Below, piece by piece: positions 13,131-57,244 of a stretch of DNA of 64,000 nucleotides. The stretch's first letter is position 1; the number at the start of each line of letters is the position of its first letter. Position numbers and translations under genes: made by a program. Under the pieces are notes generated by a model. The model was not told where the DNA came from, made no database searches, and saw only the letters and a program-made list of their open reading frames with translations. This DNA is from Xanthobacteraceae bacterium (GTDB lineage: Bacteria > Pseudomonadota > Alphaproteobacteria > Rhizobiales > Xanthobacteraceae): NCBI GenBank assembly GCA_029266425.1, contig JAQSWY010000003.1, positions 62,001-126,000 on the forward strand, written 5' to 3'.

Positions 13131-13194
13131 TGATAAATATATGAAATCACTGGCGAATTTTTCTGGTGTGGACGACGGGAGGAAAACCCAAGCC
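13131..13194. mobile_element. Degenerate attachment-like site, copy of the tRNA-Leu 3' end
   Basis: This stretch aligns with 57177-57244, the 3' end and downstream flank of tRNA-Leu, in the same orientation. I count about 51 of 68 aligned columns identical by hand. The best block (CTGGTG, one mismatch, GGACGACGGGA) has 17 of 18 bases the same. It lies about 95 bp before the integrase pseudogene. Confidence 0.6.
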
Positions 13195-13287
13195 GCCGCA
13201 AACCGTTGCAAGCACTTCAGAGCGTTGCAGTTACTCGTTCCGTCCCGCACACTGTCCCGAAATCCGTCCCGAAATGGAGCTGGAAAC

Positions 13288-14983
13288 GTGGCGCGGGAGC
13301 AGGTCAATTTGCAGTTCAAGCGAGGCCGCTACTACGCCCGCCTCGGCGTTCCGGTGAAGCTCCGTGAGATCATTGGAAAGCGCGAACTGATTATAGCGCT
13401 CGGCGCAGACAAGAGCCCAGGCGCTCGCGCGATTTCGTGCGGCCATGGGACAGATGCAAGCTGAAATTGAGGGCGCTCGCAAGCGCTTCGCCGAGCCGAA
13501 GCCGCTGGGCATCGCCGTCTCCCCCAATCGCCAACTCACCCCGGCCGAGATCGCCTATAAGCACCTTCAGAGCCTAATCGCGTTCGATGAGGAAATCCGG
13601 AACACCGGCTCGCCATTAGCGAGCGGAGGCCCGGATGAAAATTATGTGCAGCAGCTTCGCGACATCGCTGCCGGACGAATTCCCAACCCGTTGCCGGGAC
13701 CGATACGTGTCGCGTTCAACAAATCCCGCCCGAACGTTGCGCCGAAGGATGAGATTGCAACGTTGCGTGCGCTCGCTCGCGCGGAGCTTGTCGCCATCGA
13801 CATCGACATGCACATAGACGAGGGACACATCCCTCCGCCCATTTCCGGCTGAACTCATTCCGCCAAGGTCTGAATCAAAGTCTGAGCGTTCCGCCCGTAT
13901 CCTCTGCGGCGACTCAATAAAGTCGCTGAGCCAACTGCTTCCGCGCTTCCTGCGTGAGCGCCAGCCGACACCGGCGACGGCGCGAGAGTACGAGGTAACG
14001 GTCCGCCAATTCGAAGAGCTATCAGAGCGCACATTCGCTATCCATGAGATCACGCGCCGGCACGTCCATCGGTTTAAGGATCGCCTGCTGGAGGTGCCAT
14101 CGAGCGCCACCAAACGGTTCCCGAGCCTGCCGCTCTCCGAAACGGCCGAGGCCAACAGGAAGCGGGCAAAGCCCTACCCCACGCTTGAGCCGAAGACGAT
14201 CAATGACAAGGCGCTCGCGCGCCTCCATGGGCTTCTGAATTGGGCAGTGCGGCAGGACATCATTCCCGATAATCCCGCCACCGGCGTGAAGGCCGAAATG
14301 ACCGGCGGAACAGCGAAGACACCTCCCCGCGTCCCCTTCGCGCCGGGTGACCTTACGAAGCTGTTTGCGCCTCGCCTGTTCGCGCCCGAAGGCGAGTTCG
14401 GCGAAGCCCAATGGGCAATGCTGATCGGCCTGTTTGCTGGCCTGCGGCCTTCGGAAAGCGCTCAGATGCGCCTGGACTCGGTCCGACGCGAGCGCGGCGT
14501 GCTCTGCTTTGTCGTCGAGGAAGAGACCAAGACCGAAGGCAGCCGCCGCATCGTGCCCGTTCATAGCACTCTCATGGCCTTGAGCTTCGAAAGCTTTATC
14601 GCGCGGCTGCGAGAAGCGGGTACGACACATTTGTTTCCAAAATGGTACGCAGACGGCATGCAGGCCAAGGCGCGCGCCCGCACCAACGGCAAAGACACGC
14701 TTAATCAGTATTTCCCGCGTTTCATTCCCGACGGTTCAACGTGACCTATCTTAAAAACGCAGGAGTCACGGATGGTCGGAAGGACTTCTACAGCTTCCGC
14801 CACACCTTCAAGACCGGCTTGTCGTCTGCGGGCGTCGATCGCGGCCTAATGGACCAGCTTTGCGGCCATAGGGACGGCTCAGCGGGCTCCGTCTATATTC
14901 ACAGCGTCTCGGTCGAGGCGCTGCGAGATGCCGTGGAGCGGCTGCAATTCGACGGCTTTGACGCTGAAAAGCTAAAGAAGTGA
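13288..14983 (+). pseudogene. Phage/island tyrosine recombinase, disrupted by three frameshifts
   Basis: The protein can be pieced together across frames. The N-terminal part begins at GTG 13288 (REQVNLQFKRGRYYARLGV). A second frame runs 13445-13852, and a third runs about 13863-14744 with the core-binding domain (ARILCGDSIKSLSQLLPRF) and the catalytic Arg in AGLRPSES and Lys in EETKTEGSRR. A fourth frame runs 14741-14983 with YSFRHTF, the CGHRDGSAG box and the Tyr nucleophile in SVYIHSVS. The first His of HxxR is Tyr here. Breaks fall near 13440, 13855 and 14742. The enzyme is dead as encoded. Confidence 0.85.
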
Positions 14984-15065
14984 AAGCGCCTATGGCCAGC
15001 GAAGTATAGCTCCGGCCTGCGCCAGAAGCTGACACTCGTCTCTATCCCGGAAGCGGACAAACAGA

Positions 15066-15905
15066 CTAGATCGCTCCAACTCGCTCCGCGCAGCTGCGCA
15101 GTACTTCTTCGCTCTCGACCGCCCACCAGTTGTTCGAGAAGATTTCAATCTCGGCATGGCCAGCAAACCCCGCCGCGGCGATGCCCCGAAGCATCGAGGA
15201 AAGGTCGATGACCCCGTCGCCTATCATGCCGCGGTCCATCAGAAGATCGGTCGTCGGCACCAGCCAGTCGCAGATGTGAAACGCGGCAATGCGCTGGCTG
15301 CACCCGGCGCGGTCGATGTCGCTCCTCAGCCGCGGGTCCCACCAGACGTGATAGGCGTCGATCGCGACGCCAATTCCTCCTTCACCGTCCGGATCGAGTC
15401 GATCGCATATGTCGAGGGCCTGGCTGAGCGTGTTTATGCAGCAGCGGTCGGCAGCATACATTGGATGGAGCGGCTCGATCGCCAAGGCGACCCGCAACCG
15501 GCGCGCCTCTTCCAGCAGGCGCGCGAGACCATCCTCCACTTGTGTGCGGGCACCGTCGAGATCGCGGCTATCCGTGGGCAACCCACCTGCGACGATCACG
15601 AAGCAGGCGGCACCAAGCTCGGCCGCATCGGAGATCGCGCGGCAGTTCTCCTCATATTGGGCGCGACGCCGCTCCGGTGTGTCGGCGGGAATGGCCGAGC
15701 TGCGGCAATAGCCGGAAACCGCGAGCCCCGCGTCGCGAATGTGCCGGGCAATCGCGCACACATCGCTGCCCTCGATCTCTCGCCGCCACGGAGCGATGGC
15801 GCCAAAGCCGTGGCGCGCAACGGCATCGATCACCTGACCGATCGGCGCCTTGTAGCCGAGCGTCGCGGTATTGATCGAGCAGCGATCCGGTGTCAGCACG
15901 GTCAC
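15066..15905 (-). CDS. Sugar-phosphate isomerase/epimerase-like TIM-barrel protein
   Basis: A 279-residue xylose-isomerase-like TIM barrel. Metal-ligand type motifs are AIEPLHPMYAADR, VAIDAYHVWWDP, AAFHICDW and HAEIEIFSNNWW. Such proteins isomerise or epimerise sugars, or dehydrate shikimate-type substrates (3-dehydroshikimate dehydratase is in the same fold family). The GTG at 15905 overlaps the stop of the upstream gene as GTGA, the pattern seen at every junction of this operon, so longer starts are rejected. It is the last gene of the TetR-controlled minus-strand operon beginning at 19532. Confidence 0.85.
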   Translation of the reverse strand: MTVLTPDRCSINTATLGYKAPIGQVIDAVARHGFGAIAPWRREIEGSDVCAIARHIRDAGLAVSGYCRSSAIPADTPERRRAQYEENCRAISDAAELGAACFVIVAGGLPTDSRDLDGARTQVEDGLARLLEEARRLRVALAIEPLHPMYAADRCCINTLSQALDICDRLDPDGEGGIGVAIDAYHVWWDPRLRSDIDRAGCSQRIAAFHICDWLVPTTDLLMDRGMIGDGVIDLSSMLRGIAAAGFAGHAEIEIFSNNWWAVESEEVLRSCAERVGAI

Positions 15906-16732
15906 GCCCCGATGCCGAAGAAAGCGCACACCGCATCGACCTGTCCCTGCAGCATATGAATGCCGGAATGGGTGCCGCAACCGCGCCGTGAGGCTTCTTC
16001 GAGCAACGGCGTGACGCTCGGCTTCAGGATGATGTCGACGACTAGTGTGGAGGGCGAGAGGCTGTCGACGCGGAGGGGGAAAGGATCGGCCGGAGCCATG
16101 CCGACTGAGGTGCAGTTCACCGCCACGTCGAAGCCAATCGGGTCAGGCTCGCCATATTCGACCGCCACATCCGGCGAGACACGGCGCAACTCCTCGGCGA
16201 TATTCTCGGCGCGACGGCGATCGATATCAAACAGGCGGATTGCTGCCGGCGCCTCATCGAGTACGGCATGGGCGACGGCCCGTCCCGCTCCGCCCAAACC
16301 GATGATCAGTACGCGCCGACCCGCCAATTCATGGCCGCGCTCACGCAGGCCACGTACGAAGCCGATGCCGTCGAAATTGTCCCCGAGAAGGCGTCCATTC
16401 TGCTTGCGGATGACATTGACGGCGCCGATGCGTGCACCCATCGCGCCGACCTCGTCGACCAGTTCCAACGCGGCGACCTTGTGCGGGACGGTGATGATCA
16501 GACCGTCGAAATTCTGCGTCGCGCGGAAAACCTCAATGACCGCCGCGAGATCCGGCGGCGCAACGTGCAACGGCACGAGAACCGCTTCCGCGCCGCGCCT
16601 GCGGAAGGCGGAGTTGAACAGCCGTGGTGAGGCGACCTGCCCAATCGGATCGCCCAGGATGGCGTAGACCCGCGTCGCGCCCGACAACGGGAGCGGAAAT
16701 CCGGGCGCTTCGTCGATGCCGGGCCCGCTCAC
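15902..16732 (-). CDS. Shikimate/quinate dehydrogenase-like protein
   Basis: A 276-residue AroE-family protein. The substrate motif reads GDPIGQVASP, with Val33 in place of the first Ser of the HSxSP signature. The catalytic Lys85 is present in TVPHK, DNFDG stands for NTDG, and the dinucleotide motif GLGGAGRA is at 145-152. AroE reduces 3-dehydroshikimate with NADPH. The altered pocket and the catabolic setting suggest a different hydroxy-acid or quinate-type substrate rather than the biosynthetic enzyme. It starts at GTG, overlapping the previous stop (GTGA). Confidence 0.85.
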   Translation of the reverse strand: MSGPGIDEAPGFPLPLSGATRVYAILGDPIGQVASPRLFNSAFRRRGAEAVLVPLHVAPPDLAAVIEVFRATQNFDGLIITVPHKVAALELVDEVGAMGARIGAVNVIRKQNGRLLGDNFDGIGFVRGLRERGHELAGRRVLIIGLGGAGRAVAHAVLDEAPAAIRLFDIDRRRAENIAEELRRVSPDVAVEYGEPDPIGFDVAVNCTSVGMAPADPFPLRVDSLSPSTLVVDIILKPSVTPLLEEASRRGCGTHSGIHMLQGQVDAVCAFFGIGA

Positions 16733-17946
16733 GCTTCGACCCCGCGCACCGACAGGACCGTGCGCATGCGATGCACCGCCTTCTCCGGATCCCGCAAGAG
16801 GCCCGTGGCATCGGCCATGCGGAAGATTTCCGCAAGATGCACCGTCGAACGGGCGCTCTCCAGGCCTCCGGCCATGGTGAAATGATTTTGATGGCCGTTG
16901 AGATAAGCCATGAACACGACGCCGGTCTTGTAGAACTGGGTCGGTGCGGCGAAGAGGTGCCGCGCCAGCGCCTCGGTCGGCTTGAGGATCGCGCGATAGC
17001 CATCGAGGTCATTCGCCGCGAGCTTTCCGAGGCCAACGGAGGCAGCCGGCGCTATGGCGTCGAAAGCGCCGAGAAGAGCGTGCGAATGCCCCCCCTCGTC
17101 TCCCTCGATAAGGGCGACGTAGTTGAAATCGTCGCCGGTATACATCTTCACGCCCGCCGGCAGGCGGCGGCGCAAGGAGATCTCGTGAGCGGCGTCGAGC
17201 AGCGAGATCTTGATGCCGTCCACCTTGGCAGCGTGATCGTCGATGATGCCGGCGACGACGTCCATCGCCGCGCCAACATCCGCGTCTCCCCAATAGCAGG
17301 CCAGGGCCGGATCGAACATCTCGCCGAGCCAATGGAGCACCACGGGCTGGCGCACCTGGCGCAGCAGGCGGTCATAGACCGCGATGTAATCGTCCGGCCC
17401 GCGCGCAACCTTCGCCAGCGCGCGCGAGGCCATCAGCACGATGCGGCTGCCGGTGGCTTCGATCGCCTCGATCTGCTCCTCATAGGCGCGTACCACGTCG
17501 TCGAGCGTGCGTGCATCGGCGGGAGCCAGCTGGTCGGTGCCGCACCCGGAGGCCACGAGGCGCCCGGGTCCTGCCGCCGCGCTGGTGCGACGGATGAGTT
17601 CCAGCGCCGTCGGCCAATCGATGCCCATGCCGCGCTGTGCGGTGTCCATGGCCTCGGCAATGCCGAGCCCGAGGCTCCACAAGTGCTCGCGGAAGGCGAG
17701 TGTACGGTCCCAGTCGATCGCCGAGGACAGCCAGGGATCGCCGGCAGCAAGCGGATCGACGACCACATGGCCGGCGGCATAGGCGATGCGCGAGAACGGC
17801 CGCTCAGGCGAGCGCGCCACGATCGGGGTGCCTGTCACCCGATAAGTCTCGAGCAACCCGCCTCGCTTCGGAAGCGACAGGCTGAGGCGAGATGTGTCGG
17901 AAGTCGTGGCGAAGGTCATGGCGCGCTCCGGATGGATGAGGGTCAC
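16729..17946 (-). CDS. DUF993 family protein, DHDPS-like TIM barrel
   Basis: About 405 residues. It matches my memory of the DUF993 family, which is annotated as dihydrodipicolinate-synthase-like. Conserved-looking segments are RPFSRIAYAAGHVVVDP, WDRTLAFREHLWSLGLGIAEAMDTAQRG, KVDGIKISLLDAAHE and MYTGDDFNYV (a Lys and Tyr as expected for a class I aldolase barrel). The reaction is unknown. A GTG at 17946 gives a GTGA overlap with the CoA-transferase gene, as at the next two junctions; an ATG at 17919 is the alternative. It probably cleaves or condenses an intermediate between the transferase and the dehydrogenase. Confidence 0.82.
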   Translation of the reverse strand: MTLIHPERAMTFATTSDTSRLSLSLPKRGGLLETYRVTGTPIVARSPERPFSRIAYAAGHVVVDPLAAGDPWLSSAIDWDRTLAFREHLWSLGLGIAEAMDTAQRGMGIDWPTALELIRRTSAAAGPGRLVASGCGTDQLAPADARTLDDVVRAYEEQIEAIEATGSRIVLMASRALAKVARGPDDYIAVYDRLLRQVRQPVVLHWLGEMFDPALACYWGDADVGAAMDVVAGIIDDHAAKVDGIKISLLDAAHEISLRRRLPAGVKMYTGDDFNYVALIEGDEGGHSHALLGAFDAIAPAASVGLGKLAANDLDGYRAILKPTEALARHLFAAPTQFYKTGVVFMAYLNGHQNHFTMAGGLESARSTVHLAEIFRMADATGLLRDPEKAVHRMRTVLSVRGVEA

Positions 17947-19532
17947 GAGGCGGCGCGCAGGCGCGGATGGACGTGCCATTCGCCCGGCATCTCGTCGGCA
18001 ATGCCCATCGGCTCCGGACGGAACAAACGTGAATCCATGAGCTTGAGGCCAGGCGCGATGCGAGGGCGGAAGGCCATCTGGCCGAGAACATCGTGCTCGA
18101 GATCGATCCCGGGAGCGACCTCGATCAGCTCGAGCCCATCCTCGCCGGTGCGGAACACCGCCCGCTCAGTCACGAACAGCGTGGTCTGGCCGCGCGAGCG
18201 TCCATAGGGGCCGCTATATGAGACCTGCTCCACCGCCTCGACGAATTTGCGGTGCTTGCCTTCGGTGAGAATGGTCAGTTCGCCGTCACTTGCACCGACC
18301 TTCAGGCCGCCAGCGGTGAACGTGCCCCCGAACACCATTGTGCGGGCGTTCTGGCTGATATTGACGAAGCCGCCGATCCCGACGACGCGGTCGGCAAACC
18401 GGCTGATATTGACGTTGCCGACCCGGTCGACTTCCACTGCCGAGAGGAAGGCGATGTCGAGCCCGCCACCATCGTAGAAATCGAACTGATAAGGCTGATC
18501 GATCATTGCCCAGTAGTTGCGCGAGGCTCCAGCGTCGAGGCCGGAGGCAGGCGCGCCGCCGATGAGCCCCTGCTCATTGGTGAGCACCATTTGATCGAGC
18601 ATACCCTCCTCGGCACCGACGAGGCCGATGCCGGTGCAGATGCCCGAGCCGATGTTACAGACGGCGCCGCGCCGCAGCTCCATGGCGCAGCGGCGGGCGA
18701 CGATTTTGCGCTCATCGAGCGGCAGCTTCGGGAAGCTATCGAGTGGAATGCGCAACTGACCGGCAAAGGCGGGATCGAACTCGGTCTGGTAGGTCTGCTT
18801 CTGCTCCGGCTCGACCACGACCACATCGACCAGCATGCCGGGGATCTTGACCGCCTTGCCCGGCAGGGTGCCGCGCCGGGCGAGACGCTTGACCTGCACG
18901 ACGACGAGACCGCCACAACGACGCGTCGCCTGCGCCATCGACAGCACCTCGCCGAAGATCGCCTCGTCCTCCATCGAGATGTTGCCATCCTCGTCGGCGG
19001 TCGTGCCGCGCAGGAACGCCACGTCAATATCAAACGGCTTGTAGAACAGCCACTCGCGATCCTTCACGGTGACGAGCTCGACAAGGTCTTCGGAGCAGAT
19101 GCGGCTCTGCTTGCCGCCCGACAGGCGAGGATCGACGAAGGTGTGCAGGCCCACATGAGTGATGAGGCCCGGCCGACCGGCGGCGATCTCGCGGATGAGC
19201 TGGGAGAGCGCGCCCTGAGGCAGCGTATAGCACTCGATGAGATCGCGGCGCGCCATCTCGGCGATCGGCGGCGCATCGACGACGGTCCCGCAGACCACGC
19301 GCCGGATCAGCCCTTCATGGGCGAAGCGCGAGGCTCCGGCTTCGGCGCGATTGCCGAGCCCGACCGGATGGATGGTCGTGATGGAGCGCGGCTGCTGCTG
19401 GTCGACGAACCGCCGCTCGACCGCGGCGATCAGTGCTTCCGGCACGGCGTGCCCCGAACCCGAACCGCCGATGAGAATCGTGTCGCCATCGCGCACGAGC
19501 GCCGCTGCGGCGGACGCCGTGAGGATCTGCAT
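17943..19532 (-). CDS. Acetate/propionate-type CoA-transferase
   Basis: A 529-residue fused alpha-beta CoA-transferase of the YdiF/propionate CoA-transferase kind. The N-terminal half has DGDTILIGGSGSG and THVGLHTFVDPRLSGGK; the second half has the catalytic Glu320 in NEQGLIGG followed by NIS repeats. It moves CoA between carboxylic acids. The ATG at 19532 has GGAG upstream; an in-frame ATG at 19553 is less likely. It is the first gene of the operon 19532-15066, and the palindromic operator lies 42 bp upstream. It may activate or release the acid handled by the pathway. Confidence 0.9.
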   Translation of the reverse strand: MQILTASAAAALVRDGDTILIGGSGSGHAVPEALIAAVERRFVDQQQPRSITTIHPVGLGNRAEAGASRFAHEGLIRRVVCGTVVDAPPIAEMARRDLIECYTLPQGALSQLIREIAAGRPGLITHVGLHTFVDPRLSGGKQSRICSEDLVELVTVKDREWLFYKPFDIDVAFLRGTTADEDGNISMEDEAIFGEVLSMAQATRRCGGLVVVQVKRLARRGTLPGKAVKIPGMLVDVVVVEPEQKQTYQTEFDPAFAGQLRIPLDSFPKLPLDERKIVARRCAMELRRGAVCNIGSGICTGIGLVGAEEGMLDQMVLTNEQGLIGGAPASGLDAGASRNYWAMIDQPYQFDFYDGGGLDIAFLSAVEVDRVGNVNISRFADRVVGIGGFVNISQNARTMVFGGTFTAGGLKVGASDGELTILTEGKHRKFVEAVEQVSYSGPYGRSRGQTTLFVTERAVFRTGEDGLELIEVAPGIDLEHDVLGQMAFRPRIAPGLKLMDSRLFRPEPMGIADEMPGEWHVHPRLRAAS

Positions 19533-19573
19533 ACTCTGACTCCAGAAGGACAACGGGTGGCGAGCACCCAGAA

Positions 19574-19591
19574 ACTTACTTATCAGTAAGT
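19574..19591. promoter_or_regulatory. TetR-type operator, copy 1
   Basis: The sequence is ACTTACTTATCAGTAAGT, with perfect 7-bp arms (ACTTACT/AGTAAGT) around 4 bp. It lies in front of the CoA-transferase operon. Its reverse complement is exactly the copy at 22239. Confidence 0.85.
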
Positions 19592-19720
19592 CAGATTTCT
19601 ATGCTTCGCAAGCCGGCAGCGACGCGCGGGCAGCCGACCTGTCGGGCTCAAGCCGGGCGTGAAGAAGCACACTCCGCGCCGAGCGTTCGCAGACTTTGCT
19701 GGATGCAGGATCGGGAAGGG

Positions 19721-20389
19721 CTATTCGGCCGCGGCGGGCCCTGCGTGCTTCGGAGCGTAGGCCGACAGCATGACGCGGGAAAAAGCCTCGAAGAACTGCT
19801 CGAGCCGCTCGAAGTTGCCGGCATCCTGGGTGAAAACTGAGGAGCTGTTGACGATGTTCACCAGGAGAAAGGCGAGATCGTCGACCGGTGCATCCGCGAC
19901 GAGTTCGCCCTTGTCATGAGCAATCCGCACTGCCACCCGGATCGCCGCGTGGACATTGTCAGTGAAGGATGCCAGCGATTCCCGCGTGCCGGGGCTGAGC
20001 ACCTCGCCCTCGAGGCGCAGGCGACCGATAAGACTCCAGGGCTGCCCGCTCTTGCGGCCGCGATTGAACGCCTTGTAGCGCGTCCGATTGAAGGCAGCGA
20101 CATCACGCAACTTCTCGATCAGCGAGCGATCCGGATTCTCCCAGATCTCCTTGTGCTTCACGCAGGTGCTGGTGACGTAGTCACGCACGACTTCCTCAAC
20201 CAGCTTCTCCTTGTTGCCGAAGTGGTAATGGATGTTGGTCGTCGTGATATCGAGCCGCTCGGCGATGTGGCGAAAGCTCGTTCCGTGGAAGCCGTGGCGG
20301 ATCAGCAATTCGGTCGCCACCTTCTTTATACTGTCGCGCATCGGGAGCCGGCCGGCCGCCGAATTCTCTCCGTCGGATTTGCGCGCCAT
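19721..20389 (-). CDS. TetR-family transcriptional repressor
   Basis: A 222-residue regulator. The N-terminal helix-turn-helix reads GTSFRHIAERLDITTTNIHY followed by HFGNKEKL, the classic TetR pattern; the C-terminal domain would bind the effector. The ATG at 20389 has GGGAG at some distance upstream, and the open frame continues to a TTG at 20464 that overlaps the MaoC gene stop. Three identical-type palindromes flank this gene's neighbours, so it is the likely owner of those sites. The ligand may be a pathway acid or its CoA ester. Confidence 0.88.
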   Translation of the reverse strand: MARKSDGENSAAGRLPMRDSIKKVATELLIRHGFHGTSFRHIAERLDITTTNIHYHFGNKEKLVEEVVRDYVTSTCVKHKEIWENPDRSLIEKLRDVAAFNRTRYKAFNRGRKSGQPWSLIGRLRLEGEVLSPGTRESLASFTDNVHAAIRVAVRIAHDKGELVADAPVDDLAFLLVNIVNSSSVFTQDAGNFERLEQFFEAFSRVMLSAYAPKHAGPAAAE

Positions 20390-20460
20390 CAGCTGGAAAC
20401 TCCCAGAGTCCGGAGCATCATTCGCCCCGCGGAAACAGATGATCAAGGCAATGCAATCGG

Positions 20461-20964
20461 TCAAGCCGACGGCGCGCCGTCGGATCGGCGCCGGCTCATC
20501 ATGAGCAGGGTCTGCCCCTCCTGCACGACGGCTCCACGCTGATTGAGCACGGACGCCTCAAAAGTGACGATGCCTCGGTCGTCCCTTCGGGTGGCCCGCT
20601 TGGCCTGAACGGAAAAGCGCGCCTCGATCCGGTCGCCGATGAAGATTGGCGCCCTGAATGACCAGTTCCACGACAGCGTGGCGATGCCAAGCAGCCGGAC
20701 CGGGCTGCGGGTCTTCAGCCCATCCGTCAAGGCAAGACCCAGAAGGCCGTGAGCGATACGACCGGGAAATCCCTGCTCGCGCGCAAAGGCATCGTCCATA
20801 TGCACGTCGAAAAGATCGCCGGAAATGCCGGCATAGCCGACGACATGGGCCTCGGTGACGGTAACCCCGGAGGTGAGGAAGAAGTCGCCCTCGTTGAGAT
20901 CGTCGTAACCATAAAGGCCGGGCGGTAGTGCGCGCGGTGCGGCGGCGGATTCGTTCAGGGCCAA
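20461..20964 (-). CDS. MaoC-type (R)-specific enoyl-CoA hydratase
   Basis: A 167-residue hot-dog-fold protein. The catalytic Asp and His are in YAGISGDLFDVHMD, followed by GRIAHGLLGLALTDGL. These enzymes hydrate trans-2-enoyl-CoA thioesters. It is encoded directly after operator copy 2 and directly before the TetR gene, probably as one unit. With the CoA-transferase it implies that part of this pathway runs on CoA thioesters. Confidence 0.88.
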   Translation of the reverse strand: MALNESAAAPRALPPGLYGYDDLNEGDFFLTSGVTVTEAHVVGYAGISGDLFDVHMDDAFAREQGFPGRIAHGLLGLALTDGLKTRSPVRLLGIATLSWNWSFRAPIFIGDRIEARFSVQAKRATRRDDRGIVTFEASVLNQRGAVVQEGQTLLMMSRRRSDGAPSA

Positions 20965-20989
20965 GGGGGCGCTTCCATCATGACAAACT

Positions 20990-21007
20990 TACTTACTGAT
21001 AAGTAAC
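20990..21007. promoter_or_regulatory. TetR-type operator, copy 2
   Basis: The sequence ACTTACTGATAAGTAACT differs from copy 3 by one base in the right arm. It lies between the divergent MaoC/TetR unit and the ABC ATPase gene at 21147, so it can control both. Confidence 0.85.
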
Positions 21008-21146
21008 TTCGCATTGACCGCACCCAGCGTCAATGCTAGCTCTCTGCGCAATTGCTCCATCCCATCCGGGCAAAAGTGGGCGCAATTGGAAGCGCATGGC
21101 TGCCCTGTCTTCGCGTTGGCCGCCCCAGGATCGTAAGGCTCTCTTC

Positions 21147-44595: not shown

Positions 44596-44596
44596 G

Positions 44597-49032: not shown

Positions 49033-49048
49033 ATGTAAGACGAGTTAC
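49033..49048 (+). promoter_or_regulatory. GntR-regulon motif, copy D
   Basis: ATGTAAGACGAGTTAC lies 32 bp before the start of the RraA-like gene. A TATAAT at 49010-49015 could be a -10 element just upstream. Confidence 0.65.
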
Positions 49049-49080
49049 TTTAGCGATCCTGCCAGATTTGGAAGGCGTTC

Positions 49081-49797
49081 ATGAGCACGGCACCTCTTTC
49101 GGACGAGACGCGCAGCCTGCTGGCACAGCTCAGCACCGCAACATTGACATCGCAACTCATGGCGCGCGGCCTACGCAACACCTTCATGCAGGGCGTGCGG
49201 CGGCTAACCACTGGCGGGCCCTCCATGGTCGGCGAGGCCTTCACGCTGCGCTACATCCCCTCGCGCGAGGATATCGACGTCTCCGCCGTGTTCGAGGACC
49301 GCAACCACCCCCAGCGCAAGGCGGTGGAGACGGTGCCGCCGGGCCATGTGATGGTGATCGACTGCCGGCAGGACAACCGCGCCGCCGGCGCCGGCAGCAT
49401 CCTCGTCACCCGCATGATGGTGCGCGGCGCAGCGGGGGTCGTCACTGATGGCGGGCTGCGCGACTCGCCCGCCATCGCCGAGCTGGATTTTCCTGTCTAT
49501 TGCGCAGGCCCCGCGGCGCCCAGCAACATCACCCGGCATCACGCCGTCGACATCAATGTGCCGATCGGCTGCGGCGAAGTCCCGGTCTATCCCGGCGACA
49601 TCATCGTGGGCGACCGCGAGGGCGTCGTCGTCATTCCCCCCCATTTGGCCGATCAGGTCGCCCGCGACGGCTATGAGCAGTCGCTGATGGAGGATTTCGT
49701 GACCGAGCGGGTGATGGCCGGCGAGTCCATCTTCGGCCTCTACCCGGCGAATGCCGAGGGCATGGAACGGTTCAGGGCGTGGCGGCAGGGGCGCTGA
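49081..49797 (+). CDS. RraA-like protein / HMG-type aldolase family
   Basis: A 238-residue protein of the RraA/4-hydroxy-4-methyl-2-oxoglutarate aldolase fold. The metal/substrate motif is GVVTDGGLRDSPAI, preceded by RAAGAGSILVTRMMVRGAAG. Family members include oxaloacetate decarboxylases, aldolases and sugar-acid dehydratases. Being the first plus-strand gene divergent from the ABC operon, with motif copy D upstream, it probably cleaves or dehydrates a keto-acid of this pathway rather than regulating RNase E. Confidence 0.87.
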   Translation: MSTAPLSDETRSLLAQLSTATLTSQLMARGLRNTFMQGVRRLTTGGPSMVGEAFTLRYIPSREDIDVSAVFEDRNHPQRKAVETVPPGHVMVIDCRQDNRAAGAGSILVTRMMVRGAAGVVTDGGLRDSPAIAELDFPVYCAGPAAPSNITRHHAVDINVPIGCGEVPVYPGDIIVGDREGVVVIPPHLADQVARDGYEQSLMEDFVTERVMAGESIFGLYPANAEGMERFRAWRQGR

Positions 49798-49923
49798 CGG
49801 GGGCGGACCGCCTGAGGCGCGCGTTCCGGCCTCAGAGCCTGAGCATCCTTCGAGGCTCGGGCCTTGCCCGAGCGCCTCAGTGGCTGACCCGCAATTCATC
49901 GGAAGGAGAAGCCGGCGATTTCC

Positions 49924-50009
49924 GCCGTCATGACCGGGCTTGTCCGGCCATCCACGGTTGATCCCTCGTCACGGGCGGGGATCCCCGGGACAAGCGCGGG
50001 GATGACGGG
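49924..50009. repeat. REP-like palindromic element
   Basis: The element runs from CCGTCATGACCGGGCTTG to GCGGGGATGACGGG and is related to 2831-2924. A fragment of the second REP family (CATCCTTCGAGGCTCGGG) lies just before it at 49847. Both sit between convergent genes. Confidence 0.7.
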
Positions 50010-50063
50010 TCATTTGCTGCATTACGAGCCAGGCTCTCAGAGAGAGCCAGCCGACCTTTCCAC

Positions 50064-52316
50064 CTAAAGCACGTGGTCGCCAAGCTTGGGGATGGTCTCG
50101 ACGCCCCAGATCATCCGCTCGCGGATGATGGCGCGCGGCCGCTCGGGATTGACGCTCTCGAATTCGCGGGCGATGCGGTGGCCGTCGAAAATGGCATCGG
50201 CCAGATAGCGCGGGGCGAGGCAATCGCCGGAGCGCACCACCACCTCGAGGCCGGCATCCGCCCAGCGCTCCTTGCGTGCGACCAGGGCGTCGTAAAGCTC
50301 GCGCTTGGACTCGCGCGCCGTGCACAGCACGACGGTGTCGCAGGCCAGCAGCTCGACCGCGTCGCCGATCCGGCGCGGATACACGCCCGCCTCCGGCTGC
50401 GTGGTGCGGCGATAGCCGTCGCGGTAGCGGTCATAAAGCACGACCTCTACAGCGCCGGGCCCGCCGCGCACCTCCTCAACCCAATGGCCGACGCGATCAT
50501 TGATGCCTTTCTCGCGCATCATGCGGCGGATGTTGTAGCCCTCGAGCGTCAGCTCGGTCATCGGCGCCACCGTCTCGTAATGGGTGACGAGGGTGACCTG
50601 CTTGCCCTGGTCCACCAGCGCCTCGGCGATGCCGATGGCCATGAAGTAGCCGTCGGAATCCAGCACCACCACGCGGTCGCCAATCGGTTTGCCGGCGAAG
50701 AACTGCTCGGGTGTGACGAATTGGTCGAGGTTTGAATCGACGCCCGGAACCGGGTCCGGCCCGCTCGCGCCCAGCCCGTTGCCGACCCAGTAGGCGCCGT
50801 TCGCCAGCACCACGCGCGAGGCGCCGTATTCCAGAATGTCGTCCGCCGTCACCAGCCCGGTGCCGCGCATCAGCGTGACGTTCGCCATGCGCTGGATTTG
50901 GCTTTCGCGGTAATGCACCACGCGCGCCCATTCGGCGAGGCCCGGCAGCTTCACCACGTCTTGCATGTGGCCGCCAAGGGTTTGGCTCGCCTCGCACAGA
51001 TGCACATCGTAGCCGCGGCGGCCGAGCACGCGGGCGCATTCAAGGCCCGAAGGCCCGGCGCCGACCACCAGCACGGTCTTCGCATCGGGGGCCGGCTCGA
51101 AACGCTCGGGATGCCAGCCGCGCCGGTATTCCTCCAGCGCTGTCGGGTTCTGGGTACAGATGATGGCGTTGCTCATATTGTAGCGGGAGACGCAGGCATT
51201 GCAGCCGATGCACTCGCAGATGTCGTCCACCCGGCCTTCGTCGATCTTCCGCGGCAGCCACGGATCGGCGATGGACGGGCGGGCGCAGCCGATGATGTCG
51301 AGCTGGCCAGTGCGCACGATGCGCGCCATCTCGTCGGGATCGGTGAAGCGGCCGACGCCGACCACCGGCACATTGGCGATGGCTTTGACCGTGGAATTCC
51401 ACGGCGCCTGGTGGTTCGACTTGTAGAAGCGCGAGGGACCTGAATCCTCGCCCCACATGTCCTCGCCCGAGCCGCCGATGATGACGTCCCACATATCGAC
51501 CAAGCCGAGCCTTGTGATGTACTCGACGAAGGCCAGCCCCTCGTCGCGCAGTTCAAGCCCCCACGGACCGGCAAGGTCGTCGATGGAGATGCGGGTCGCC
51601 ACCGCGCACTCGTCGCCCGCCACTTTCTTCAGCCGCTCCAGCGCCTCGACCCAGAAGCGGGCGCGGTTCTCGAACGAGCCGCCATATTTGTCGGTGCGCC
51701 GGTTGTAGTGGCGCGACAGCGCATGGACCGGGAACACCCCCGCCGCGCCGTGGACATAGAGGATGTCGAAGCCGGCATCCCTGGAGCGCCGCGCCGCGTC
51801 CTCATACATCTGCATGACGCGGTCGATGTCTTCTTCCGTCGCCGGGTAGGTGTAGACCTTGGGAATGCCGCCAGAGGGGAAACGGTCGAAGGCCGGCGCG
51901 ACGTAGCGGGTGAACAGATTGTCCTTCACGCCGCCGGCGCCGAGCTCCACGGCGGCAAGCGCGCCCCATTTATGCACCTCGTCCACCATGTGGCGGTGGT
52001 TGATGACGTCGCCCTCGTCCCAGATCGTCGCATTGGTCGAGCGCGTCTGGTTGACCTCGGGGTGGATCGAGCAGGATTCGGTGCACAGCCCGCCCCAGCC
52101 GCCCTCGGCCTTCACCGCGCGATGCGCGGCGTTGGAGCCCGGCCGCACATGGCCGATGCCGGTGCATTGCGGCACCTGGTAGAAGCGGTTCTTCATGGTC
52201 TTCGGGCCGATGCGGATCGGCTCGAACAATATGTCGTAGCGCGGATCGCGGCTCGTGTTCCGCGGCGCGGCCGGATCCGAGCGGGCGTCCTGAGAACTGG
52301 CGAACGGCGCGTTCAT
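50064..52316 (-). CDS. NADH:flavin oxidoreductase, trimethylamine-dehydrogenase-like
   Basis: A 750-residue flavo-iron-sulfur enzyme. Residues 1-370 form an Old Yellow Enzyme barrel (ILFEPIRIGPKTMKNRFYQ, YVHGAAGVFPVHALSR, YNRRTDKYGGS). A [4Fe-4S] cluster motif follows (CIGCNAC, then Cys in AIICTQNP). The C-terminal part is an FAD/NAD Rossmann unit (VLVVGAGPSGLECARVLGRR). Relatives oxidise methylated amines or reduce enoyl thioesters and cyclic dienes. In this operon it follows RidA and a PLP enzyme, so an amine or imine substrate is plausible. I use the ATG at 52316; upstream sequence is not conserved-looking. Confidence 0.88.
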   Translation of the reverse strand: MNAPFASSQDARSDPAAPRNTSRDPRYDILFEPIRIGPKTMKNRFYQVPQCTGIGHVRPGSNAAHRAVKAEGGWGGLCTESCSIHPEVNQTRSTNATIWDEGDVINHRHMVDEVHKWGALAAVELGAGGVKDNLFTRYVAPAFDRFPSGGIPKVYTYPATEEDIDRVMQMYEDAARRSRDAGFDILYVHGAAGVFPVHALSRHYNRRTDKYGGSFENRARFWVEALERLKKVAGDECAVATRISIDDLAGPWGLELRDEGLAFVEYITRLGLVDMWDVIIGGSGEDMWGEDSGPSRFYKSNHQAPWNSTVKAIANVPVVGVGRFTDPDEMARIVRTGQLDIIGCARPSIADPWLPRKIDEGRVDDICECIGCNACVSRYNMSNAIICTQNPTALEEYRRGWHPERFEPAPDAKTVLVVGAGPSGLECARVLGRRGYDVHLCEASQTLGGHMQDVVKLPGLAEWARVVHYRESQIQRMANVTLMRGTGLVTADDILEYGASRVVLANGAYWVGNGLGASGPDPVPGVDSNLDQFVTPEQFFAGKPIGDRVVVLDSDGYFMAIGIAEALVDQGKQVTLVTHYETVAPMTELTLEGYNIRRMMREKGINDRVGHWVEEVRGGPGAVEVVLYDRYRDGYRRTTQPEAGVYPRRIGDAVELLACDTVVLCTARESKRELYDALVARKERWADAGLEVVVRSGDCLAPRYLADAIFDGHRIAREFESVNPERPRAIIRERMIWGVETIPKLGDHVL

Positions 52317-52400
52317 GGCTGGCTTTCCCGTATCTCGAATTCCGACAGATGCGAACTCGCGCAAGCTCCGCTACGTAATCCCCGCCCGCGCAAGCTCCGC

Positions 52401-52871
52401 TCAGGGTTCTATTTCGGCAATGGCTTCCACCTCGACGCCGACGCCGCGCGGCAAAGTCGGCGCGCCGACCGCGCTGCGTGCATGCCGTCCGGCCTCGCCG
52501 AAGATCTCGATGAACAGGTCCGACGCGCCGTTGATGACTTTCGGCATATCGGTGAAATCCGGCGTGGCACTGACGAAGCCGGTCAGCTTGGCGATGCGCT
52601 TAACCCGTGAGAGCGAACCGCCGCAGGCGGCTTGCAACTGCACCACCAGATTGAGCGCGCACAGCCGCGCCGCGGCGTAGCCTTCCTCCACGGTGAGGTT
52701 CTCGCCGAGCCGGCCGACGCACATCAGCTGGTCGTCACGGCGCGGCACCTGCCCGGCGAGGAAGACGATGTTGCCGACCACCACCGCCGGAATGTAATTG
52801 GCGCCGGGCACGGTGGCATTGGGCACCTCGGCACCGAGGGAGGCGAGCTTCTCGTCGAAAGTCACGCTCAT
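52401..52871 (-). CDS. RidA-family enamine/imine deaminase
   Basis: A 156-residue RidA-type protein with GNIVFLAGQVP, LNLVVQLQAACG and the active-site region GRHARSAVGAPTLPRGVGVE, containing the key Arg. RidA hydrolyses reactive enamines and imines released by PLP dehydratases. It lies 18 bp after the D-serine-dehydratase-like gene, a sensible partner that would clear its product. Confidence 0.9.
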   Translation of the reverse strand: MSVTFDEKLASLGAEVPNATVPGANYIPAVVVGNIVFLAGQVPRRDDQLMCVGRLGENLTVEEGYAAARLCALNLVVQLQAACGGSLSRVKRIAKLTGFVSATPDFTDMPKVINGASDLFIEIFGEAGRHARSAVGAPTLPRGVGVEVEAIAEIEP

Positions 52872-52889
52872 GTCCGGGTTCCTGTCGGC

Positions 52890-54188
52890 TCAGAAGAAGG
52901 TGCGGATGGCGTCAACCACGACATAATCGTCACCAACCACCGGGATGACCTGCCATTTGTCGAAGGTGGTGCAGGGATGCGAGATGCCGAACGCCACCAT
53001 GTCGCCGACCTGGAGCGGGCTGTCGGCCGGCAGGATCAAGTGGCAATGCTGGTCGTTGAGGCCGGCGACGGCATGACGCTCGGGGATTGGCAGCGGCGGT
53101 CCGGCGCGGCCCGGACGATGCCAATACAGCGGTTCCGGCATCCGCGAGTCATAGGAGACGTCGCGCTTGCCCATGGCGAGGATGGCCTTCTCGGCCTCCG
53201 GGCGGGACTGCACGTAGGCCCACACTTCAAGTGCATGCGCCGGACGCGCCTCCACCCCGTCGATCTCGGGCATGCGCTGGCGCAGATCGAGGAAGCGGTC
53301 CTCATAGGTGCCGGAATCATGGGTGAGGTAGCAGCCGCTGCGAATGACGACCTTGAACCCGCGCGAAAGGCCGGCCGACTTGAAGCGAGTGGCGACGAGG
53401 TCATAGAAGCTCGATCCGCCGGCGGTCAGCAGGATCGGGCCGGGCGCGAAGGCGGCGCGCTGCTCGCAGGCCAGCGCGATCTCGACGAGAAAGTCGAGGA
53501 AGCTATCGATCCGTGCGGCCGCGTCCTTGCCCGCCAGCAGCCCCTCATAACCGCCGACGCCGGCGAGCTCGACGTAAGGCGCGGCGGCGATGATCGCCTC
53601 CATGACATCCATCGCGTCTTCCAGCGTGCGGCAGCCGGTGCGCCCGCCGGGAAAGCCGCCCTCCAGTATGACGCGGAGCGGACGCGCGCCGCCGGCCCCC
53701 TTCACCGCAGCCGCCAGACGCTCGATCCCGGCGACCGAGTCGACGAAGGACCAGAACTGGAAGTCCGGATCGCGGGCCACTTCCTCGGCCATATAGCGCG
53801 CGGCCTGCGCCCCGGTGAGTTGATTGGCGAGCAGGATGCGATCGAAGCCGTATTCGCGGGCGACCCGTATCTGCTGCACGGTAGCGAGCGTGATGGCGAA
53901 GGCCCCATCCGCGATCTGCCGGGCGAAGAGCTGCGGCGACATGGTGGTCTTGCCGTGCGGCGCGATAGCGGCGCCTGTCATGGCGAGGAAGCCGCGCATA
54001 TAGGCGCTGTTGCGCTCCAGCGCGGAGCGCTTCAGCACGGCGAGCGGCAGCGGGAGTTCTTCGCGCAGCACGTTCCAGCCCTGCCCGCCCATTGCGGACA
54101 GCGCCATCGGCCCGGCTCCGGGTGGAACACCCTTGGTGCGGCCATCGACGAGGCTGCCCTCGATCCCGCTCAGATCGATCGCCGACAT
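52890..54188 (-). CDS. D-serine dehydratase / D-threonine aldolase-like PLP enzyme
   Basis: A 432-residue fold-type III PLP enzyme (alanine-racemase barrel). The PLP Lys is Lys80 in APHGKTTMSP. The C-terminal zinc-type motif NDQHCHL matches the His/Cys pair of D-serine dehydratase. Related enzymes include D-glucosaminate dehydratase and 3-hydroxyaspartate dehydratase. The ATG at 54188 starts a normal domain; a longer frame runs into the tandem repeat and is rejected. It heads an operon with RidA and the flavoprotein, with motif copy E upstream. Confidence 0.87.
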   Translation of the reverse strand: MSAIDLSGIEGSLVDGRTKGVPPGAGPMALSAMGGQGWNVLREELPLPLAVLKRSALERNSAYMRGFLAMTGAAIAPHGKTTMSPQLFARQIADGAFAITLATVQQIRVAREYGFDRILLANQLTGAQAARYMAEEVARDPDFQFWSFVDSVAGIERLAAAVKGAGGARPLRVILEGGFPGGRTGCRTLEDAMDVMEAIIAAAPYVELAGVGGYEGLLAGKDAAARIDSFLDFLVEIALACEQRAAFAPGPILLTAGGSSFYDLVATRFKSAGLSRGFKVVIRSGCYLTHDSGTYEDRFLDLRQRMPEIDGVEARPAHALEVWAYVQSRPEAEKAILAMGKRDVSYDSRMPEPLYWHRPGRAGPPLPIPERHAVAGLNDQHCHLILPADSPLQVGDMVAFGISHPCTTFDKWQVIPVVGDDYVVVDAIRTFF

Positions 54189-54223
54189 CCGCGCTCCCCA
54201 TGCCCGCTGCGACTGGACAATTG

Positions 54224-54239
54224 TAAACTTATCAGACAG
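54224..54239 (-). promoter_or_regulatory. GntR-regulon motif, copy E
   Basis: On the minus strand it reads CTGTCTGATAAGTTTA. It lies in the 54189-54340 region between the divergent PLP-enzyme genes and can serve both. Confidence 0.65.
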
Positions 54240-54243
54240 GTTC

Positions 54244-54318
54244 GTGCAAGAAGCGCCGCGTGGTGCAAGAAGCCCAGCGTGGTGCAAGCAGCCCATCGTA
54301 TGCAAGAAGCCCAACGTG
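54244..54318. repeat. Four tandem 19-bp units between divergent PLP-enzyme genes
   Basis: Units start at 54244, 54263, 54282 and 54301 (the last lacks its first base). The shared form is TGCAAGAAGCCCAnCGTG with few differences. They lie next to motif copy E and before the ribosome site of the gene at 54341. They might be a second protein-binding array or simple slippage. Confidence 0.8.
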
Positions 54319-54340
54319 GGCCCAGGGTGGAGAAAAGGCG

Positions 54341-55477
54341 GTGTCTGGGGACGATCTGCTCGCGCGCTACGGTCTCTCGCCGCTGCTGAACGCCTCCGGT
54401 ACCGAAACCGTGTTCGGCGCCAGCCCTGTTCATGCCGACATCATCGCTGAGATCGCCGCCATACTGGCGGTTTCCGTCGACATGGCCGAGTTGCAGGCGC
54501 TCGCCAGCCGCGTGATCGCCGAGGTCACCGGCGCCGAGGCCGGCTATGTCACCAATTGCACCTCGGCCAGCATCGTCATCGCCGCGGCGGCGGCCATGAC
54601 CGGCGACGATCCCGGCCGCGCCGAGCGCCTGCCGGACACCCAGGGACTGCGCAACGAAATCGTTCTACAGAAAGGCCATGTCGTCAATTACGGCTCGCTG
54701 ATCACCGGCGACATCAGGCTGAGCGGCGCCCGCCCAGTCGAGCTCGGCGCCGCCTTCGATGCCGCGCCCTACCAGTTGCGCGCCGCTATCGGCCCCGGCA
54801 CGGCGGCGGCGCTCTATGTGGTCTCCCACCACACCGCGCAGACCGGCATGATCGCGCTTAAGGACTTCATCCACGAGGCGCATGGCGCCGGCGTGCCGGT
54901 GATCGTCGATGCCGCCGCCGAATATGACTGGCCCGGCATGATCGCCGCCGGCGCCGACCTAGTGCTGTTCAGCACGCAGAAAGCGGCTGCCGGCCCCACC
55001 GCCGGCATCATCGCCGGACGGGCCGATCTGGTGCGCGCCTGCGCCGCCCAGTGCTTTGGCGTCGGTCGCCCGATGAAGGCCGGCAAGGAGGCGGTCATCG
55101 GCGCCATCGCCGCGCTTGAACGCTGGAGCCGTCGCGACGAGGCCGCCGAGCAGGCGGCCGTGCTGGATCGCGCGGAAAAGCTGGTTGCGCTGGTGCAGGC
55201 CCTGCCCGGCATCACCGCGTCGATTGCACCGGACGAGACCGGAAACCCCTTCTACCGCGTGATCCTCGAGGTTTCGCCGGCGCTGGCCGGCGGCGATGCC
55301 CATGCGCTGGCCCGCGCCATCGCGAACGGCACGCCCCGCATAATCGTGCGCGATCTGCTCGCGGATCGCGGCCTGTTGCAGGTCGACGTCCGCCGGCTGG
55401 ACGCGGCCCGCCTCGCCTTGCTCGCCGCCCGCATCCACGATGCGGCGAACGCGCTTCAGGCCTTGCGCCGCACATAG
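54341..55477 (+). CDS. SelA-like PLP enzyme, DgaE-type ammonia-lyase
   Basis: A 378-residue fold-type I PLP protein. Its pattern is that of the SelA-like family that includes D-glucosaminate-6-phosphate ammonia-lyase (DgaE). It has LLNASGTETVFGAS at the start, VTNCTSASIVIAAAA, DAAAEYDWPG and the PLP Lys214 in FSTQKAAAGPTAG. No tRNA-binding N-terminal domain of true SelA is present. GTG 54341 with GGAG upstream fits the family start; the frame continues back into the tandem repeat and is rejected there. It is probably a deaminating lyase for an amino-sugar acid. Confidence 0.85.
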   Translation: MSGDDLLARYGLSPLLNASGTETVFGASPVHADIIAEIAAILAVSVDMAELQALASRVIAEVTGAEAGYVTNCTSASIVIAAAAAMTGDDPGRAERLPDTQGLRNEIVLQKGHVVNYGSLITGDIRLSGARPVELGAAFDAAPYQLRAAIGPGTAAALYVVSHHTAQTGMIALKDFIHEAHGAGVPVIVDAAAEYDWPGMIAAGADLVLFSTQKAAAGPTAGIIAGRADLVRACAAQCFGVGRPMKAGKEAVIGAIAALERWSRRDEAAEQAAVLDRAEKLVALVQALPGITASIAPDETGNPFYRVILEVSPALAGGDAHALARAIANGTPRIIVRDLLADRGLLQVDVRRLDAARLALLAARIHDAANALQALRRT

Positions 55478-56265
55478 TCGGCGGCGACGAACGGCCCGCC
55501 CTGGTACTTCACCGCCGGGTCTTCCATGTCGCGCGTGTCGCCATCCGGGATGACGACATCCTTGAAGCTCTCGGCATTGTCCTGCGGGCGGTAATCCACA
55601 TTCGGCGCTGCCGCATTGCTCCACCAGGAGCGGTCATTGTTCGACACGCCATAAAGGATGGTGCAGCCAAGCCTGGGAGCGTTGAAGCACGCCTCTATCA
55701 GGCGCAGCAGATCCTCATAGCTGTGCCAGGTGGAGAGATGGCGCGGATCGATGGGATCCAGCCGCGCGGTGCCGATGCGCAGGCATGCGCTCTCCACGCC
55801 GTATTTGTCGTAATAGAGGCTCGCAAGATCCTCGCCGAATGCCTTGGACACGCCATAGAGCGAGTCCGGTCGGGTGCGCACATTGGCGTCCAGCCGGTCG
55901 TCACGCGTGTAGAAGCCGATGGCGTGGTTCGAACTGGCATAGACGATGGGGCCCGCACCGAAGCGGCGCGCGGCCTCATATACATTGTAGGTGCCGAGAA
56001 TATTGGACGACAGGATCTGGTCGAAACTGGTCTCGTAGGAGATGCCGCCGAAATGGATGATGCGCCCGGCGCCCTCCACGAGGCGGTCCACCGCCGCGGC
56101 GTCCGCGAGATCGGCGATGATGATTTCCTCGCCGGGCAAAGCCGGTCCGAAATCGACGATATCGGTCGAGCGCAGGGCGCCGTATGTCTCGATCAGCCGG
56201 GGGCGCAGCCACTTTCCGAGGATGCCGCCCGCGCCGGTGAACAAGGTAGGACGGTCATTCGCCAT
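55456..56265 (-). CDS. Uronate dehydrogenase-like NAD-dependent oxidoreductase
   Basis: A 269-residue short-chain dehydrogenase with GAGGILG at 11-17, YASSNHAIGFY at 109-119 and Tyr137/Lys141 in LYGVSKAFGED. These segments are typical of uronate dehydrogenases, which oxidise hexuronates to aldarolactones. Its 3' end overlaps the convergent PLP-enzyme gene by 22 bp. Motif copy F lies 55 bp upstream. Its lactone product would suit the SMP-30 lactonase of the same putative regulon. Confidence 0.88.
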   Translation of the reverse strand: MANDRPTLFTGAGGILGKWLRPRLIETYGALRSTDIVDFGPALPGEEIIIADLADAAAVDRLVEGAGRIIHFGGISYETSFDQILSSNILGTYNVYEAARRFGAGPIVYASSNHAIGFYTRDDRLDANVRTRPDSLYGVSKAFGEDLASLYYDKYGVESACLRIGTARLDPIDPRHLSTWHSYEDLLRLIEACFNAPRLGCTILYGVSNNDRSWWSNAAAPNVDYRPQDNAESFKDVVIPDGDTRDMEDPAVKYQGGPFVAADYVRRKA

Positions 56266-56319
56266 TGGCGGAGCCCTTCAGCAAACCTGAGGCCGGCGTC
56301 TGCGGCCGGAATCGACAAC

Positions 56320-56335
56320 TTGTAAGACGATTTTA
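56320..56335 (+). promoter_or_regulatory. GntR-regulon motif, copy F
   Basis: TTGTAAGACGATTTTA lies upstream of the uronate dehydrogenase gene. It contains a full FadR-type core TTGTAAGACGA. Confidence 0.65.
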
Positions 56336-57176
56336 TAAGACTGTCCCCGCTAAACAATGCCTTCGGCAATATTTGCCCAGGGGGCCTTCACAACAGATCT
56401 TCCGAGCCGATAGCCGAGGAGATCAGCAACGCGACCGAGCGCACTTCGGCGACCTTCTGACGCTCGGCCACTCCGCAATCTTGCGAGAATATGAGCTGGC
56501 TGTGACCACAGCAGAATCGTCCACATCGATTCGCTGCTGACAGAACGTAAGCTGTATCTGATCGACTCAGGGCATCGGTAGTCTCTGTGCCCATTGTTAA
56601 CGAATGGCGTCGCGAGGCCCGAACGTGAACTAGCGCCCAAGTAACATTTGCAAAGTCCACGCCGCAGAGTCGCACGAGGACACCCAGTGCAAGATTGGGG
56701 TGAACATGGGCGTCAGGCATAGGATCGAAGCGCAGGCAATGCCAGTGTCCGCTCGCGCTCGGTGCAAAGTACCGCTTCTGGCGCAACTGTACCTCGCGGT
56801 CGGGCGCCGCATGAGCGGCGGCGAACAGGCGCATCGGAACTCGCCTCGGACTCTATAACCGGCAGGTTGGGCCGAGCACCGCGCGCAAATGTCAGCTGAA
56901 TGGCTTAGGTACAATTCCAATGCTGCCAATACGCATAGAAGAGCCGTCTCGTCACCAGTGTGCTCGACCTCGAGTATCTTTTCGCCATCGCGCACGGCAA
57001 ATCGCAACACCGATGTCCGTCTCCATAACCTTGATCGGATCATCTAGGACCGGGTTGAATTCGCTCTCCATGGCGGCGCCTCCCCATCAGAAAAGCGTTC
57101 GTGCTGAGAGGAACACGACTGTTTTCTTTGTCCCGCCGTTTTTCCCGAAATCTGCCCGAAGTCGCCTCCAAACCTA
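56336..57176. other. Region without a recognisable gene at the tRNA end of the island
   Basis: About 840 bp. Overlapping minus-strand frames at 57043-56630 (with FAVRDGEKILEVEHTGDETA) and 56834-56388 are open but match nothing I know. The first could be a short accessory protein of a mobile element that has lost its frame. Codon use looks less regular than in neighbouring genes. Confidence 0.4.
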
Positions 57177-57244
57177 TGATTAAGTATATGAGATGATTAA
57201 CGACTTTTCGCTGGTGCGGACGACGGGACTCGAACCCGTAAGCC
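57177..57244. mobile_element. Attachment-like site at the tRNA-Leu 3' end
   Basis: This segment includes the 3' end of tRNA-Leu and about 35 bp downstream of it, and matches 13131-13194 in the same orientation. tRNA 3' ends are the usual target of tyrosine recombinases. Confidence 0.6.

Follow-up and report, generated by a model that had tools for sequence, protein, structure and literature searches.

A probable composite and decayed genomic island adjoining the tRNA-Leu(UAA) 3' end in an Ancylobacter-type bacterium

How a long run of transporter and catabolic genes came to lie against the 3' end of a tRNA gene, where that run begins, and whether it arrived at once or in parts are the questions raised by a 64,000-nucleotide stretch of DNA (positions 62,001 to 126,000 of contig JAQSWY010000003.1, hereafter the window) from a Xanthobacteraceae bacterium of the Ancylobacter type, belonging to the same genus as Ancylobacter crimeensis (genome G018). 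A reading of this DNA made from its letters alone (the sequence-only reading) had proposed a possible catabolic island of 44 kb at 13131-57244, bounded by repeats derived from tRNA-Leu(UAA). The analyses reported here make it very probable that positions 4350-57211 are a composite, decayed genomic island which adjoins the tRNA-Leu(UAA) 3' end in the interval from putA to fhs and results from two or more successive insertions, the parts of which we call block A and element B (Table 1). As to its class, it is a tRNA-gene genomic island, decayed and probably tandem. The earlier proposal therefore stands as regards an island at this tRNA end, but neither its extent nor the role that it gave to the left repeat copy, which we read as a junction, can be kept.

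The extent of the insert was established by comparison with G022, the closest relative compared, in which the order is putA, a TPR gene, an S1/P1 nuclease gene, 42 bp, tRNA-Leu(UAA) and fhs. Homology between the window and G022 ends at window position 4349 and restarts at 57212, and because the left flank in G022 stands directly beside the tRNA, the inserted DNA is placed at about 4350-57211 and measures about 52.9 kb rather than 44 kb, G022 holding the empty site for this whole block. The left border at 13131 is consequently not sustained, as the inserted DNA begins at about 4349/4350; the empty site that the sequence-only reading proposed to look for does exist at the tRNA, but the sequence joined to the tRNA in it is that near 4.35 kb and not that near 13.1 kb. 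The genes to the right of the tRNA had been correctly taken for core genome, the fhs side being colinear with G022, and just to the right of the tRNA (57387-57505) there is a repeat of about 110 bp, dispersed in many copies through the genus, that has the look of an inverted repeat. The interval between putA and the tRNA was covered completely in 22 genomes out of 30, to which our counts on intervals refer, and ranges from 1.3 to 59 kb, putA being 1.3 kb from the tRNA in G021; in three genomes (G014, G019 and G015; loci L060, L061 and L062) putA is inverted relative to tRNA-Leu. Relatives carrying the whole block colinearly with core genes, which the sequence-only reading had named as the observation that would speak against an island, were looked for in the 21 other intervals and none was found. 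The composition also agrees with an insert, although this is not strong evidence alone: the GC content is 0.68 and 0.67 in the flanks and 0.61-0.66 in the parts of the insert, and that at third codon positions is lower in the insert (mean of 0.81 in 38 genes versus 0.87 in 9 flank genes; P = 2e-4).

The repeat reported between 13131-13194 and 57177-57244 was reproduced with 51 of 68 columns identical in a global alignment, and the similarity that had been noticed beyond the tRNA proved to be longer than stated, running along 13086-13180 and 57134-57228 with a local score of 35, where 2000 dinucleotide shuffles reached 16 at most; with the tRNA core left out, the remaining part still scores 23 (highest value in 2000 shuffles, 14). 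BLAST of 57100-57300 against its own genome likewise returned the 13.1-kb copy, with 74% identity over 84 bp (E = 1.5e-4). A scan of the window allowing up to three mismatches placed the 18-bp core CTGGTGYGGACGACGGGA at 13163-13180 and 57211-57228, with 0.18 occurrences expected by chance. Core-like 17-mers inside element B (19506, 37815 and 53636; 3-4 mismatches) were taken as chance occurrences and not used. The sole tRNA gene that ARAGORN finds in the window, a tRNA-Leu(taa), is intact and stands at one end of the insert, and a fragment of the tRNA 3' end (13164-13180) lies at the far end of element B, in the same orientation and on the 3' side.

Two congeners carry the same type of integrase at the same tRNA with different cargo. 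Exact 17-bp core repeats bound elements of 58.6 kb in G018 and 17.7 kb in G010, with the integrase just inside the outer core and with the end of tRNA-Leu(UAA) as the second core. In G007, the counterpart of the sequence to the left of G010's outer core leads directly to the tRNA-Leu end (94.4% over 842 positions, the query having ended at the core), so that G007 represents the empty site for the element of G010. Three of the 22 intervals, but not the other 19, contain a duplicate (at most two mismatches) of the 17 bp with which that genome's tRNA ends, and the three genomes concerned, namely that of the window, G010 and G018, are exactly those with a close integrase, the search for which covered all 22 (19 genomes in one search and 3 in another). 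The uninterrupted run common to both core copies is only 19 bp in G010 and 17 bp in G018; moreover, the sequence to the left of the outer core is unlike the right arm in both, the arms lying inside the elements with repeated CTCCCGAAAT-like units (identified by eye), and a long attachment core is therefore no property of the family.

The tyrosine-recombinase pseudogene claimed just inside the left repeat copy was recovered in four pieces in shifting frames (13243-13416, 13412-13843, 13839-14729 and 14711-14977), with DUF6538 in the piece 13303-13422 and PF00589 in the piece 14741-14983, the three frame changes leaving no intact integrase open reading frame (ORF). The gene is open in G018 (594 amino acids) and in G010 (566 amino acids), to which the window piece 14094-14744 shows 75% and 77% identity, respectively. 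An integrase match of some kind occurs in 13 of 25 genomes, all but the close relatives at 25-35% identity. In a set of 296 genomes of the family and 397 of the order we found nine further homologues (35-63% identity), in six of which the matched stretch is preceded, at a distance of 50-134 bp, by a 17-mer resembling the core (1-4 mismatches), the next-best 17-mer within the same 1.5 kb showing 5-7 mismatches. A scan of the whole collection with two short peptide patterns gave 117 candidate stretches, only one of them a relative and that one G018's own record, and the plasmid and phage collections contained only distant integrase relatives at 24-28% identity (two records with E <= 1e-20 and three at E <= 1e-5). 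At positions 1313-1429 of locus L080 a distant member of the family (35% identity) is found directly behind tRNA-Ser(GCT), a neighbour that suggests a switch of target tRNA within the integrase family.

The two sides of the 13.16-kb core were examined with hold-out models of the arms, which were built from G010 and G018 only, leaving the window out. The right-arm model including the core matches at 57.1 kb (E = 3.5e-10) and also at 13.1 kb (E = 4e-9), and the integrase-side model including the core matches 13164-13278 (E = 4.4e-16). Since the core at 13.16 kb is flanked by an arm on either side, as expected of a tandem junction, it is best read as the internal junction of two tandem insertions, block A and element B. 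The sequence-only reading had left two options for the similarity extending past the tRNA, of which old tandem insertions agree with this anatomy, but a long core does not agree with the 17-19 bp shared by the copies in G010 and G018. The same arm units are seen in the tRNA-Leu flank of G011 (L029, approximately 18490-18589; E = 4.3e-6), although this genome has a different tRNA end and gave no match to the integrase.

Under the mechanism that we propose, an integrase of the type encoded at 13.2-15.0 kb would recombine a circular element with the tRNA gene through an attachment (att) site that copies the last 17 bp of tRNA-Leu(UAA). The old 3' end of the tRNA would be displaced to the far edge of the element, and since the element brings a new 3' end the tRNA would stay intact. 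At least two such insertions would have taken place at the same tRNA, first that of block A, presumably an element in its own right, and then that of element B between block A and the tRNA, in consequence of which the 13.16-kb site would be composed of A's right arm, the core and B's left arm. Afterwards the integrase of B would have decayed by frame changes, and A would have lost its outer end, core and integrase.

Table 1. Coordinates of the island, its parts and its flanks in the window
Feature	Position	Strand	Basis or remark
Left chromosomal flank	1-4349	.	Colinear with G022, there directly adjoining tRNA-Leu
putA	109-2790		Left flank
TPR gene	2972-3433		Left flank
S1/P1 nuclease gene	3447-4466 (as called)		Left flank; called start past the end of homology, may be too far upstream
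Block A, putative older element of the same family, outer end lost	4350-13163	.	Absent from the G022 site; family right arm at right end
Block A genes: CsoR-like repressor, NicO, VTT, ABC exporter, two GT2, epimerase, NUDIX, methylase fragment	4350-13163		Pfam
Right-end arm of block A, partly decayed	13094-13163	+	Hold-out model
att core copy, 1 mismatch to tRNA-Leu 3' end; putative A/B junction	13164-13180	+	Pattern scan, comparison with G010/G018
Element B, 44 kb	13164-57211	.	Core copies bound both ends, arms at both ends
Integrase-side arm of element B, with repeated CCCGAAAT-type units (by eye)	13181-13278	+	Hold-out model
Tyrosine integrase pseudogene, four pieces, three frame changes	13243-14977	+	tblastn with G018 integrase
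Module 1: TIM-barrel isomerase-like, shikimate dehydrogenase N, DUF993, CoA-transferase, TetR, MaoC, sugar-type ABC transporter	15066-25420	.	Pfam
Module 2: Tct transporter genes, GntR/FCD regulator, AcnA-type aconitase	27006-34097	.	Pfam/NCBIfam
DDE transposase remnant and second tyrosine recombinase fragment	34368-35225	+	Pfam
ABC permease (BPD_transp_2) and double ATPase	37005-39588	-	Pfam
Module 3: amidohydrolase, GntR, SMP-30, Opp/Dpp-type ABC transporter, RraA-like, OYE-like, YjgF, D-Ser dehydratase-like, DgaE-like, epimerase	39894-56377	.	Pfam/NCBIfam
Right-end arm of element B	57128-57211	+	Hold-out model
att core copy, within intact tRNA 3' end	57212-57228	+	Pattern scan, comparison with G010/G018
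tRNA-Leu(UAA), intact	57212-57298	-	ARAGORN
Right chromosomal flank: fhs (57522-59288) and following genes	57299-64000	.	Colinear with G022

The cargo of element B is of the transporter and catabolic kind that had been predicted and, judging from its Pfam and NCBIfam assignments, probably confers catabolic functions; the insertion-sequence remnants that had been noticed are also present, as a transposase remnant at 34368-34781 and a second integrase fragment at 34854-35225. Neither relaxase nor type IV secretion families, the genes expected of an integrative and conjugative element (ICE), were found by Pfam in 51 of the 54 called ORFs and in 10 further ORFs or pieces, the stretches between these being unscanned. 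Among the matches listed, besides which further colinear copies may exist, the modules are found colinear at other loci of congeners: module 1 (15199-25418) in G003 and G002, module 2 (27010-34070) in G007, and module 3 (39962-56377) both in G022, in two long blocks at 94% and 91% nucleotide identity and shorter ones at 87% and 76%, and in G003 at 73-82%. No mobility genes were seen beside module 3 in G022 (7 ORFs) or G003 (3 ORFs), and these two genomes have no common colinear sequence past the module in the stretches compared. Some part of block A is matched in 20 of the 30 genomes, mostly its CsoR/NicO end, which is located at other loci in congeners, G022 included. At E = 1e-40 each cargo query is matched in some part by all 30 genomes, many times at 65-75% identity, and we take these matches for paralogous transporter and regulator genes. 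Within module 3, a repeat of about 200 bp (49843-50041) recurs on two further contigs of the window's genome at 83-86% identity and is missing in the G022 version of the module. The second integrase fragment and the bases that follow it (34847-35386) are 91-93% identical to a locus of G002 (92.9% at the nucleotide level for 34847-35238), and some 4 kb away from this locus there is a NicO-type cluster resembling that of block A.

A number of observations weigh against the composite reading. None of the relatives compared holds A alone or B alone, and none offers a clean tRNA junction or empty site for element B alone. No third core copy was detected near the outer edge at 4350 by pattern, 17-mer scan or arm model, nor was any trace of an integrase found there, so that the nature of block A is read from its right arm, the family sequence in this block being limited to its last 70-80 bp. 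Once the core is removed, the right-arm scores are weak (E = 0.039 at 57.1 kb and 0.0052 at 13.1 kb). Three of the nine further integrase homologues have no tRNA-Leu core, one of them immediately following an intact tRNA-Ser(GCT) and the other two being preceded by sequence that resembles, by eye, a tRNA-Ser end. Module 3 is slightly closer to G022 than the flanks are (93.3% versus 90.6% nucleotide identity, and 85.8% versus 79.4% at third positions, pooled figures that exclude 24562-25420), which points to a module native to the group or exchanged among close relatives and not brought from afar; the excess could be due to later exchange or to mere rate differences. Opp-type genes with 66-70% DNA identity to module 3 share a contig with tRNA-Leu, at a distance of 18-24 kb, in G004, G008, G024 and G101, four genomes outside the 22 fully covered intervals, and we take them for paralogues. 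Finally, the assembly is a draft in 222 contigs, with a completeness of 91.65 and a contamination of 7.51.

The lack of an outer core and integrase in block A, together with arms on both sides of the 13.16-kb core as in a free attP, would suit a single element arriving by other means (for example, homologous recombination) with its attP undivided, yet the 57.1-kb end has an arm and a core at an intact tRNA, the trace of site-specific insertion, and we consider such an arrival very unlikely. A single element inserted once, starting on the left at 13131 and having a long attachment core, as the title of the sequence-only reading had it, is a shade less likely still: it would account for the core copies and the integrase at 13.16 kb and for a similarity that does run past the tRNA, but the empty site of G022 joins 4349 and not 13130 to the tRNA, the family in G010 and G018 has no such core, and the left copy in the window resembles the right arm, as a tandem junction should. 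Less likely again is a chimera of the assembly, which the number of contigs and the contamination might favour, since colinearity with G022 on one contig extends to both flanks and the anatomy of repeat and arms is the same as in other genomes, one of which (G010) is a single-contig assembly. That the block is ancestral at the locus and was deleted in G022 and G021 is the least likely of the four, for although the length of the putA-tRNA interval varies widely, the divergence of module 3 is typical of the group and Opp-type genes stand near tRNA-Leu in four genomes, the 44 insert ORFs have no counterpart with at least 50% protein identity in the 21 other intervals (the elements of G010 and G018 included) except the integrase pieces in these two, those Opp-type genes are far more diverged than the flanks, the modules proper are at other loci, and att repeats and integrase coincide in three of three genomes.

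Retaining the composite, tandem island as the preferred explanation, a further suggestion, which is tentative and on balance doubtful, is that the island behaves as a collector: resident modules of congeners may have been moved intact into integrase-bounded elements at tRNA-Leu(UAA), shuttling native genus-level clusters between strains and not importing distant DNA. The resident modules meant here are module 3 in G022 and G003, module 1 in G003 and G002 and module 2 in G007.

These results define an integration site, putA / tRNA-Leu(UAA) / fhs, and its integrase in Ancylobacter-type bacteria, with empty and independently occupied sites, and correct the extent of the island. The integrase family with its arms provides a testable attP/attB pair, and the modular cargo at other loci of congeners hints at how catabolic clusters reshuffle within the genus. 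Literature searches directed at the site or the genus brought up no title concerned with this island, which leaves its absence from print unproven.

Four published accounts served for comparison with known systems. The tRNA- and tmRNA-gene islands catalogued by Islander have, as described there, an intact tDNA at one end, a same-orientation 3' tDNA fragment at the other and a tyrosine integrase inside, span 2-200 kb and include tandem arrays (PMC4383910). The island of the window resembles them in its intact tRNA, its same-orientation 3' fragment and the tyrosine integrase inside, and differs from them in that this integrase is broken; moreover, the tandem rule given in that account asks for an integrase and a tRNA fragment of its own in each member, and because both are lacking at the outer end of block A the array falls outside it. 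The ssrA islands of Dehalococcoides are described as tandem at one RNA gene and marked by 3'-end repeats, with integration genes at the left edge and respiration-gene cargo, and as thought to be mobilizable but not conjugating (PMC3146451). Tandem insertions at one RNA gene marked by 3'-end repeats are common to both systems, whereas a serine recombinase and a tmRNA target take in Dehalococcoides the place of the tyrosine recombinase and tRNA-Leu seen here. ICEs of the Tn4371 family, according to the account consulted, use tRNA-Leu 3' ends and carry catabolic cargo (PMC9960961); the likeness to them is one of site and cargo, and unlike them our island shows no conjugation genes among its scanned ORFs. 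In the hot spots of Sinorhizobium meliloti, islands and prophages are reported to have entered repeatedly at the 3' end of one tRNA gene, with integrases that group by target gene (PMC11476347). The sites there are other tRNA genes, the term tRNA-Leu not appearing in that text, but repeated integration at one tRNA 3' end is what those hot spots and the island described here have in common.

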